The notes under the pieces were generated by a model, which was not told where the DNA came from, did no database searches, and saw only the letters and a list, made by a program, of their open reading frames with translations. Source: Altibacter sp. HG106 (GTDB lineage: Bacteria; Bacteroidota; Bacteroidia; Flavobacteriales; Flavobacteriaceae). From it: 64,000 bases of DNA. The DNA lies in NCBI RefSeq assembly GCF_028561755.1, contig NZ_JAQQTD010000008.1, forward strand, positions 1 through 64,000, written 5' to 3'. The translations under genes and the position numbers were made by a program. Each line of letters starts with the position of its first letter. Within the stretch, counting starts at the first letter, position 1. Of this stretch, positions 25,239 through 28,613 are shown piece after piece.

Positions 25239-26426
25239 TTAGTCTAGGATTTCAGTTACCTGTCCTGCACCCACTGTTCTACCACCTTCACGGATAGCGA
25301 AACGCAATCCTACATTCAAGGCGATAGGCTGGATAAGGTCTACGGTAATTGTAAGGTTATCACCTGGCATTACCATTTCAACTCCGTCAGGTAAGTTGAT
25401 GTTTCCTGTTACGTCAGTCGTACGTACGTAGAACTGCGGACGGTAGTTATCGTGGAATGGTGTGTGACGACCACCTTCTTCTTTCTTAAGGATATACACC
25501 TCAGCTTTAAACTTAGCGTGTGGTGTTACAGAACCAGGCTTGGTAATTACCATACCACGCTTAATGTCTGTTTTTTCAATACCACGAAGTAAGATACCTA
25601 CGTTATCTCCAGCTTCTCCACGGTCAAGGATCTTACGGAACATCTCTACTCCGGTGATCGTTGAGGTAAGCTTTTCAGCACCCATACCGATAATTTCTAC
25701 AGGGTCTCCAGTGTTTGCAACACCTGTTTCGATACGACCGGTTGCAACCGTACCACGACCTGTAATAGAGAATACATCTTCGATAGGCATCAAGAAAGGC
25801 TTGTCTACTTCACGAGTTGGCTCTTCGATCCAAGAGTCTACTGCCTCCATTAATTCAAGTACAGTATCTACCCATTTTTGCTCACCGTTCAAAGCACCAA
25901 GTGCAGAACCAGCGATCACTGGACCGTTATCTCCATCATACTCATAGAAAGAAAGCAAGTCACGGATTTCCATCTCAACAAGCTCTAAAAGCTCCTCATC
26001 ATCTACCATGTCTACTTTGTTCATGAACACAACGATACGAGGAATTCCAACCTGGCGTCCTAAAAGGATGTGCTCACGCGTTTGTGGCATAGGTCCATCC
26101 GTCGCAGCAACAACAAGAATCGCACCGTCCATCTGAGCAGCACCTGTTACCATGTTCTTTACATAGTCGGCGTGACCAGGACAGTCTACGTGTGCGTAGT
26201 GACGGTTCTGAGTTTGATATTCAACGTGTGAAGAGTTGATCGTAATCCCTCTTTCTTTTTCCTCAGGTGCGTTATCGATTTGATCGAAAGAACGTGCTTC
26301 TGAATAACCGGCATCTGCCAATACCTTAGTAATGGCAGCTGTCAATGTAGTTTTACCGTGGTCTACGTGTCCAATAGTCCCCACGTTCAAGTGAGGCTTC
26401 GACCGATCGAATGTTTCTTTAGCCAT
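25239..26426 (-). CDS. tuf: Elongation factor Tu
   Basis: A 395-residue GTPase that delivers aminoacyl-tRNA to the ribosome. The P-loop GHVDHGKT is at 19-26, followed by DCPGHADY and NKVDMVDD. Length is normal. The gene lies directly after tRNA-Gly and tRNA-Thr on the same strand and before tRNA-Trp, and is probably co-transcribed from the promoter at 26755-26786. The leader has no Shine-Dalgarno sequence. Confidence 0.98.
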
Positions 26427-26552: not shown

Positions 26553-26610
26553 GTAAAGATTGTTCTTTCTCTGTTTGAGAAGAAGCCGTTGTTCGTAAAA
26601 ACAACCTTAG

Positions 26611-26683
26611 AGCGGGAGACCGGGTTCGAACCGGCGACATTCAGCTTGGAAGGCTGACGCTCTACCAACTGAGCTACTCCCGC
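26611..26683 (-). tRNA. tRNA-Gly (TCC anticodon)
   Basis: A 73-base cloverleaf. The acceptor GCGGGAG pairs with CTCCCGC and the anticodon loop CTTCCAA gives TCC. It is the first gene after the strong promoter at 26755-26786. Confidence 0.96.
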
Positions 26684-26754: not shown

Positions 26755-26786
26755 CAAAGATAGCGATATTCAACTAGGTTTCAAAA
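26755..26786 (-). promoter_or_regulatory. Strong promoter for tRNA-Gly, tRNA-Thr and tuf
   Basis: On the minus strand TTTTG (26786-26782) is followed by 19 bases and then TATCTTTG (26762-26755). This is a full match to the Bacteroidota -33/-7 arrangement. It lies 72 bases before tRNA-Gly, inside the tRNA cluster. Confidence 0.8.
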
Positions 26787-26856: not shown

Positions 26857-26940
26857 GGATTACCTCGCTATGCTAGGTGATCCTGGATTGGTGACCCAAT
26901 CCAAAGAATTTTCAATCAAAGCCTTACAAAAGCGAGCTTT
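26857..26940 (-). repeat. 84-bp structured repeat, copy 2
   Basis: This copy nearly matches the one at 26972-27055; the few differences lie in one hairpin loop. On the minus strand it has AAAGC-TC-GCTTT, then GGATTGG-GTCA-CCAATCC, then GGAT.ACC...GGT.ATCC. It lies between tRNA-Tyr and tRNA-Gly. Confidence 0.85.
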
Positions 26941-26971
26941 CATTTGCTTATCAATATTCAAGGAACATCAT

Positions 26972-27055
26972 GGATTACCTCGTTACACTCGGTGATCCTG
27001 GATTGGTGACCCAATCCAAAGAATTTTCAATCAAAGCCTTACAAAAGCGAGCTTT
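26972..27055 (-). repeat. 84-bp structured repeat, copy 1
   Basis: Direct repeat of 26857-26940 with a 115-base period. On the transcript it is the first copy after tRNA-Tyr. The inner helix reads GT-GTA-AC here and GC-ATA-GC in the other copy, a compensatory change that supports RNA structure. Confidence 0.85.
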
Positions 27056-27080
27056 TGACAGCTTCTTCGAAAATTCTTGG

Positions 27081-27163
27081 TGGGGAGAGCAGGATTCGAA
27101 CCTGCGAAGTTAAAAAACAACAGATTTACAGTCTGTCCTCGTTGGCCGCTTGAGTATCTCCCC
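27081..27163 (-). tRNA. tRNA-Tyr (GTA anticodon)
   Basis: An 83-base class II tRNA. The acceptor GGGGAGA pairs with TCTCCCC, the anticodon stem-loop ACAGA-CTGTAAA-TCTGT gives GTA, and there is a variable arm. The CCA end is not encoded. Confidence 0.96.
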
Positions 27164-27396: not shown

Positions 27397-27699
27397 TTAG
27401 GCATGTGCCCTTTGTTTTTGTTTTCGTTTTTTCAGTTGTCGTTCGAGCGATTGAATGCATTCATCTGTAGCGGCTTCAAAGGTTTTCGCCTCTTTCTTAC
27501 AAATCAGATCTCCGCCAGGAATACTGATTAAAATTTCTGTGTGCTTGTTCTCTTTTTCGCTGGTCTTCTGAACTTTCAGAAATACATCGGCAAAAATAAT
27601 TCGGTCGTAAAATTGTTCCAGTTTGGAAAGTCTTTTTTCAATGAATTGAACGAGTTTGACATCCGCTGCAAAATTTGGGGCTTGCACATTTACTTTCAT
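27397..27699 (-). CDS. hpf: Ribosome hibernation-promoting factor, short form
   Basis: A 100-residue HPF/RaiA-type protein that binds the decoding region of idle ribosomes. The N-terminal VQAPNFAADVKLVQFIEKRL and the basic C-terminal tail (QLKKRKQKQRAHA) fit the short family members, which lack a dimerisation domain. It follows xerC by 23 bases and is probably part of an rpsU-xerC-hpf unit, so a ribosome protein and a hibernation factor share regulation (inference). Confidence 0.92.
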   Translation of the reverse strand: MKVNVQAPNFAADVKLVQFIEKRLSKLEQFYDRIIFADVFLKVQKTSEKENKHTEILISIPGGDLICKKEAKTFEAATDECIQSLERQLKKRKQKQRAHA

Positions 27700-27722: not shown

Positions 27723-28613
27723 TTATTTTGAATTCCTAGGGTGCGCATCCTGATAGACCTGCTTTAACTTTGCTATACTATTGTGTGTATAGACCTGTGT
27801 CGCAGCCAGACTGGTATGCCCTAGTAGTTCTTTGACCGCTGTTAGATCAGCACCTTCATTCAACAGGTGGGTTGCGAAGGAATGCCGAAGAATATGCGGA
27901 CTTCTTTTTACTTTCACTGAGGTCTTACTAAAATAATTATTTATCACGCGATACACAAGTGTTTCGTAGACTTTTACCCCTTTTTCTGTAAGAAACAAAT
28001 AAGCATCATCCACAATATCAGGAAGTTGTTGTCGTTCTCGAAGATAACGCTCGATGGTTTCCGCTACGGAAGGAAGCAAAGGTATCAATCGCTCTTTATT
28101 CCGTTTTCCTAACACTTTGATCGTTCGATTTTCCAGAGAAATAGCGCTTCGTTTCAAATGTACCAGTTCGGCCCGTCGCATCCCGGAAGCATAAAACAGC
28201 TCGACCATCAGCTTGTTCCGGGTGCCCTCAAACCCTTCTTCCTCATTTAGCAAGGCTATTACAGCTTCAATCTCTTGTTGTGAAAAGGGTATTTGAACTT
28301 TTTTTTTGGTTTTTAATGCCTTATGCTGAAGCAGTGGATTGACATCCATTTGCTTGGTCTTCAGCAAAAACTTAAAATACGCTTGCAGCGATGATATTTT
28401 ACGATTAACGCTTCGGTTGGAAACTCCCGCCTCGACCAACTGCACCATCCATTGGCGAATGATCGAATACGATACTTCATTGAGGTTTTCATACCCGTAT
28501 TCTTCCGAAGCAAAGGCGGCAAACTCAGAAAGATCTTTGAGGTAGGCCGTAAGGGTATGTTTACTGTATTTTTTCTCTAGTGAAAGGTATTCATGGAAGT
28601 CGGTATAGGACAT
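27723..28613 (-). CDS. xerC: Tyrosine recombinase XerC/XerD
   Basis: A 296-residue site-specific recombinase that resolves chromosome dimers at dif. The N-terminal SAM-like core-binding domain spans about 1-90. Catalytic residues are all present: R146 (GMRRAEL), K170, H240 and R243 (SPHILRHSF), H266 (LLGHTS) and Y275 (ATQVYTH). Whether it is XerC or XerD cannot be settled from one gene. It is part of rpsU-xerC-hpf; the T run of the rpsU terminator directly abuts its start codon. Confidence 0.9.
   Translation of the reverse strand: MSYTDFHEYLSLEKKYSKHTLTAYLKDLSEFAAFASEEYGYENLNEVSYSIIRQWMVQLVEAGVSNRSVNRKISSLQAYFKFLLKTKQMDVNPLLQHKALKTKKKVQIPFSQQEIEAVIALLNEEEGFEGTRNKLMVELFYASGMRRAELVHLKRSAISLENRTIKVLGKRNKERLIPLLPSVAETIERYLRERQQLPDIVDDAYLFLTEKGVKVYETLVYRVINNYFSKTSVKVKRSPHILRHSFATHLLNEGADLTAVKELLGHTSLAATQVYTHNSIAKLKQVYQDAHPRNSK

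Follow-up and report, generated by a model that had tools for sequence, protein, structure and literature searches.

Structured elements that immediately follow tRNA genes in Bacteroidota, with a full and a partial copy between tRNA-Tyr and tRNA-Gly in Altibacter sp. HG106

The two near-identical copies found between a tRNA-Tyr and a tRNA-Gly gene in Altibacter sp. HG106 belong to a family of structured elements located directly 3' of tRNA genes in Bacteroidota, one copy being a full member and the other a partial duplicate. As judged from sequence comparison, the family is shown to lie in sense orientation behind tRNA genes (and one tmRNA gene), its three-helix fold is shown to be under compensatory selection, and the presence or absence of a terminator is shown to depend on whether further tRNA genes follow. 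The element is apparently uncatalogued. We read it, with moderate confidence, as a transcribed, structured and processed tRNA trailer with a putative role in processing or stability, and rank this reading first, ahead of remnants of integration events in second and a two-way transcriptional insulator in third place.

The window, that is the whole stretch of 64,000 nucleotides that was analysed, carries on its minus strand the gene order tRNA-Thr(TGT), tRNA-Tyr(GTA), a 394-nt spacer, tRNA-Gly(TCC), tRNA-Thr(GGT) and tuf (Table 1). A first-pass annotation, made from the sequence of the window, had described two near-identical 84-base units 115 bases apart in the spacer, and the comparison of the two copies (26857-26940 and 26972-27055; 95% identity, 4 differences, start-to-start distance 115) confirms this. 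On the transcribed strand, the 278 nt adjoining tRNA-Tyr fold with a z of -5.8 relative to shuffled sequences, and 0 of 200 shuffles fold as well. The pair was also said to precede the tuf promoter; a promoter-like site of the Bacteroidota-type consensus does lie between the element and tRNA-Gly, upstream of Gly-Thr-tuf. The copy pair occurs a single time in its own genome, where a single 84-nt unit has no other full-length match.

Table 1. Features of the tRNA-Tyr to tuf region of the window
Feature	Position	Strand	Basis
tRNA-Tyr(GTA); the element begins directly at its 3' end	27078..27163	-	ARAGORN, Rfam
Unit 1, the full element (type I; P1-P2-P3 lacking a terminator)	26972..27077	-	fold; covariance-model match
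P1, long hairpin from the first base after the encoded tRNA-Tyr CCA	27020..27077	-	fold, arm-pairing test
P1 core GTCAAAAGCTCGCTTTTGTAA: apical stem and GU/UAA internal loop; most conserved stretch	27039..27059	-	
P2 hairpin	26999..27018	-	fold, aligned copies
P3 hairpin GGATCACC-GA-GTGTAAC-GA-GGTAATCC, GA/GA internal loop	26972..26998	-	fold, aligned copies
Unit 2, partial duplicate: 3' half of P1, P2, P3	26857..26940	-	repeat comparison, fold
Promoter-like TTG-N19-TATCTTTG, between element and tRNA-Gly, upstream of Gly-Thr-tuf	26755..26784	-	pattern only
tRNA-Gly(TCC)	26610..26683	-	tRNA gene call
EF-Tu (tuf) reading frame	25239-26426	-	identified by eye from translation

The full element is 106 nt long, running from 27077 down to 26972 on the minus strand, and folds into three hairpins, P1, P2 and P3. 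This corrects the earlier assignment of three hairpins to each 84-base unit: in the proximal copy the element is longer than that unit, and the distal copy has lost the outer 5' arm of P1 (P1 duplex -4.8 versus -14.1 kcal/mol in the proximal copy), so that only P2 and P3 are intact there. P1 is a long hairpin with the core GUCAAAAGCUNGCUUUUGUAA, which itself contains TTTT; in 40 of 48 loci a gap of 0-2 nt separates it from the tRNA. Its outer arms differ between genera with compensation, and the stem of P2 diverges widely among genera, the changes being paired. All four differences between the window copies fall within P3, as had been claimed for a single hairpin, but their compensatory nature holds for one pair only: two of them form a true pair exchange (C-G versus U-A), another lies in the loop and a G to T change breaks the GA/GA internal loop of the distal copy. 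At eight loci with multiple copies, the P1 duplex averages -12.8 in first units (n=8) and -6.1 in later units (n=11), with a later unit of locus L150 (-10.3) as an exception, and hence later units are mostly partial duplicates.

Since compensation within the window amounts to this single pair, the evidence for selection on the fold comes mainly from relatives. In an alignment-free test on 37 genera (one locus per genus, 37 of 48 loci used), pairing between the 16 nt that follow tRNA-Tyr and the downstream arm of the same locus averages -9.4 kcal/mol, compared with -4.5 kcal/mol for swapped arms, and 0 of 20000 permutations matched the own arms. When 60 copies (59 distinct) were aligned to the model, 95.5% of the cells were standard pairs and 21 of 27 pairs showed double changes, counts that are biased towards the structure to which the copies had been fitted; none of the five measures was equalled by a shuffle, and pairing drops to 35-53% in slid registers. 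The non-Watson-Crick cells comprise 83 G-U and 13 A-C, compared with 125 and 72 expected from column composition alone. This predominance of G-U over A-C fits a single-stranded sense form, for instance RNA, better than a two-strand cruciform. The arm-swap test, the aligned copies and the G-U and A-C counts thus bear out the proposals that the fold is kept by selection and, in the case of the last, that the transcribed strand is the one that folds.

A first look at 40 genomes yielded 24 loci besides the window with both tRNA-Tyr and tRNA-Gly, 22 of which have a plain spacer of 9-95 nt, one (G007) a clear copy and one (G013) a diverged copy. A covariance model, R1, was built from three copies and run at a cut-off of E<=0.01, the E-values being rough, on 397 genomes from 237 genera of the family, inferred to be Flavobacteriaceae. 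It gave 89 matches in 63 genomes and 52 genera, and at the same cut-off 334 of the 397 genomes had no match to this type I model. The absence of type I matches from these 334 genomes and the short spacer in 22 of the 24 first-look relatives show that the element is dispensable. Individual checks covered 71 of the matches, the other 18 being tandem neighbours or loci seen in earlier comparisons; 69 of the 71 lie behind a same-strand tRNA. The element of unit 1 is conserved behind tRNA-Tyr in relatives, and all 30 of the best R1 loci sit directly behind this tRNA on the same strand. The 41 weaker loci are found behind tRNA-Tyr (20), behind Pro, Ser, Leu, Arg, Ala or Val tRNAs (19) and at contig ends (2). 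With a further model, R2, at least 9 of 395 genomes of a phylum sample were matched among 10 candidates scored per genome, including one genome outside the family, G557, behind tRNA-Arg and tRNA-Met; being a tRNA-Tyr-type model restricted to 10 candidates per genome, R2 understates the wider family.

An unselected scan of public genomes, one per species, used the 21-nt P1 core GTCAAAAGCTNGCTTTTGTAA and ignored tRNAs. It recovered at least 119 stretches; with one viral stretch added, 125 matches were listed. Carriers among the public genomes include Wocania arenilitoris, Gelidibacter algens, Robiginitalea myxolifaciens and Altibacter lentus. In named genomes, 108 of the 124 matches listed lie within 200 nt downstream of a same-strand tRNA, compared with 201 of 5950 random positions, genomes of one genus not being independent samples in these counts. 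Among the matches listed, none has only an opposite-strand tRNA within range, 5 are near a contig edge and 12 lie elsewhere (the viral one included). Inspection of these 17 by eye revealed a truncated tRNA or a tRNA/tmRNA 3'-end remnant at about 10, and four second units; L286 is ambiguous, and L203 and L299 show no tRNA link. Distances from core to tRNA among the matches listed cluster at 20-24 nt (type I, see below) and 40-54 nt (type II). The 80 record titles among the core matches listed are nearly all from Bacteroidota (Flavobacteriales, Chitinophagaceae, Crocinitomicaceae, Bacteroidales), the others being one Lactococcus and one Eubacteriaceae record. In the former (L255, Lactococcus reticulitermitis), which is outside Bacteroidota, a P1-like hairpin lies 16 nt behind tRNA-Arg(ACG) and is followed by another tRNA; it may reflect transfer, contamination or convergence. 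The sole viral-contig match listed (L307, IMG/VR) lies behind the 3' half of a tRNA-Pro, resembling the end of a prophage integrated there; a search of phage records for the element gave no match.

The family comes in two forms. Type I, found behind tRNA-Tyr, consists of P1-P2-P3, and the intrinsic terminator, a GC-rich hairpin with a T tract, is absent from this form, the window copy included. In type II, found behind most other tRNAs, a closing helix, P0, encloses a terminator hairpin, P1 and a small hairpin, and P3 follows; here P1 takes in the T tract of the terminator. Among 60 distinct type II loci, 57 have a sense terminator and 41 an antisense terminator-like hairpin, the latter versus 5 of 60 shuffled controls, and the flanks of P0 and P1 pair beyond every permutation, those of P0 also within tRNA type. 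The two forms differ in what follows them: at 78 distinct loci with enough downstream sequence, all 49 terminator-bearing elements lack a same-strand tRNA in the next 600 nt, whereas 27 of the 29 terminator-less elements have one, 26 of these 27 being tRNA-Tyr loci and one the tRNA-Arg locus of the Lactococcus record, so that tRNA-Tyr accounts for almost all of this side of the correlation. Inspection by eye showed that three elements behind tRNA-Pro(TGG), each closely followed by a tRNA (L126, L140, L152), are also terminator-less, and the terminator is present at L131, L132, L144 and L148. Since the terminator is absent where further tRNA genes follow, the type I form appears to sit where read-through is needed. 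A P3 and a type II-like fold were also seen behind a tmRNA gene (L172, genome G214).

An RNA-processing role, already suggested by the first-pass annotation, is the leading interpretation. Behind tRNA-Tyr, the element would lie inside or at the end of the tRNA transcript and be transcribed within the pre-tRNA. P1, starting so close to the tRNA end, would stack on or follow the acceptor stem and probably sets 3'-end cutting, with a predicted cut at the tRNA/P1 boundary. The released trailer of approximately 100-300 nt would be either stable, as is E. coli RtT, or degraded. The conserved P1 core and the GA/GA loop of P3 are most easily read as a putative site where a single RNA-binding or processing factor docks. 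Where the tRNA is terminal, this core is built into an intrinsic, often two-way, terminator; the tandem second copy would be a by-product of local duplication. Against the trailer reading count the dispensability of the element, the tRNA 3'-end copies next to P3, the predominance of tRNA-Tyr on one side of the terminator correlation, the use of a structure-fitted alignment for the pair counts, and the type II part beyond the terminator, which would be transcribed only on read-through. More tentatively, and with rather less confidence than for the trailer itself, we hypothesize that the elements constitute an undescribed, phylum-wide and modular class of tRNA-trailer RNAs on tRNA and tmRNA genes, in which a dedicated factor reads the core, coupling 3'-end maturation, trailer release or read-through, and the terminator is present only at unit ends. 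tRNA 3' trailers are usually regarded as short throw-away sequence. An element that compensatory evolution maintains right behind many different tRNA genes of a major phylum hints instead at a step of tRNA maturation or transcription that has gone unrecognised, or else at an unusual kind of genetic element associated with tRNA 3' ends. With its sharp core motif, and with forms that do and do not carry a terminator, it lends itself to direct testing, and the family could enter Rfam.

Scans of the window and the element loci with Rfam 15 found no family that covers the element, Flavo-1 included, and no RtT match at E<=5 in the window and 16 element loci. Nor did full-text searches, which covered mainly the main texts of freely accessible papers, bring up a paper on such an element in Bacteroidota. 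The RtT RNA of the tyrT operon was reportedly described by Bosl and Kersten in 1991, and the tyrT repeats carry a copy of the tRNA 3' end. This E. coli RNA is the nearest described system and occupies a similar place (PMC4986893). Co-oriented tRNA genes flank the window copy, a position that would fit an operon transcript, and tRNA 3'-end copies like those of the tyrT repeats occur here at other tRNAs. The element differs in following many tRNA species and in having a three-hairpin fold and a core shared across a phylum. In the archaeon Methanopyrus kandleri, a palindrome at a fixed distance likewise stands behind many tRNA genes of one genome and has been suggested as a 3'-maturation signal; it is a single short palindrome of other sequence and was called M. 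kandleri-specific. Intrinsic bidirectional terminators are similar in that type II elements look like two opposed terminators, whereas the element has a conserved core, P3 and a terminator-free form inside operons. The Flavo-1 motif (RF01705) is likewise a structured element of Flavobacteriaceae with unclear function, and is described as having no fixed orientation relative to transcripts (PMC2864571, PMC9723704); it gave no Rfam match at the element loci.

The strongest competitor of the trailer reading, although in our view unlikely, is that the elements derive from site-specific integration at the 3' ends of tRNAs, as remnants or as cassettes, units of tRNA 3' end, hairpins and P3 being moved in trans by an integrase; the units are too short to encode one. 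Tandem arrays would then be stacked insertions flanked by tRNA 3'-end copies. Downstream copies of the cognate tRNA 3' end (score >=12) occur in 24 of 346 tRNA flanks, compared with 3 flanks in which any of about 19 non-cognate queries per flank has such a copy and with 0 of 343 upstream flanks. Several arrays have the copy abutting the AATCC or TCC at the close of P3. These copies next to P3 suggest events at the DNA level, and junctions at AATCC speak for integration. Further in its favour, the targets include tmRNA, a classic integration site, and where an element has no tRNA gene in front of it, a tRNA 3' end often stands there (L165 and several core matches). Such orphans are, however, also expected if islands or prophages split a tRNA and displaced its end together with the trailer. 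Integration also sits poorly with a tRNA-Tyr element that keeps a single orthologous site across 37 genera while changing in a compensatory way, with window copies that have no tRNA 3'-end copy evident beside them, and with a single viral contig, adjoining a tRNA-Pro 3' half, among the matches listed.

Less probable again is that the element is an insulator, a two-way intrinsic terminator closing tRNA units in both directions, with P1 arising merely from complementary T tracts. The sense and antisense terminators of type II and the pairing of the P0 and P1 arms beyond permutation are what it would predict, but neither the window copy nor the other tRNA-Tyr elements carry a terminator, and the conserved P1 core, the GU/UAA loop and P3 are left unexplained. 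An attenuator of the downstream Gly-Thr-tuf genes, as the first-pass annotation had also suggested, is very improbable, although the element lies upstream of tuf and its two units can pair with each other in alternative ways, since it is also found after tRNA-Pro, Ser, Leu, Arg, Val and Phe, among others, and after one tmRNA, with unrelated downstream genes, the tRNA-Tyr form has no terminator and the promoter-like site lies after the element. Just as improbable is an ordinary dispersed palindromic (REP-like) repeat: P3 alone is amplified in some genomes (L094; G101) and resembles common Bacteroidota hairpins, but in its own genome P3 (<=3 mismatches) occurs four times, always behind tRNA-Tyr or tRNA-Ser, and a check of 21 P3 loci placed 19 after a tRNA, one after a tmRNA and one after a tRNA-end remnant. 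Many copies scattered between unrelated genes with random changes, which would mark a simple repeat, were seen neither in the own genome nor among the listed core matches of public genomes. The earlier suggestion of a small family of genomic repeats therefore survives as to a family, and not as to ordinary repeats, the core matches listed being nearly confined to tRNA 3' flanks and P3 occurring, in its own genome, only behind tRNA-Tyr and tRNA-Ser.

Several flanks contain further repeats. Tandem tRNA 3'-end copies in which a hairpin of the type TTTATCCTGAGC..GTCGAAGG replaces the T loop were seen in the 3' flanks of tRNA-Thr and tRNA-Gly (L022, L101, L104, L111, L116, L129), and tandem degenerate tRNA-Pro-like arrays with hairpins inserted in several loops lie between tRNA-Ser(GCT) and tRNA-Pro(TGG) (L125, L126). 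At L086, the element is separated from tRNA-Tyr by an insert that includes a broken copy of the 3' half of this tRNA, and it thus still begins immediately behind a tRNA 3' end. In the own genome, cognate tRNA 3'-end copies are located 105-325 nt downstream of the genes for Phe (L061), Pro-GGG (L077), Arg-ACG (L083), Met (L073), Val-GAC (L071) and Arg-TCT (L059). On the minus strand of the window, a 296-aa frame (27723-28613) that by eye resembles a XerC/D-type tyrosine recombinase lies just upstream of a small frame (27397-27699) and the tRNA operon. Finally, several draft assemblies (G001:C12, G005:C13, G015:C335, G020:C20, G025:C122, G029:C17) break in or next to the tRNA-Tyr gene or the spacer, perhaps due to repeat arrays there.
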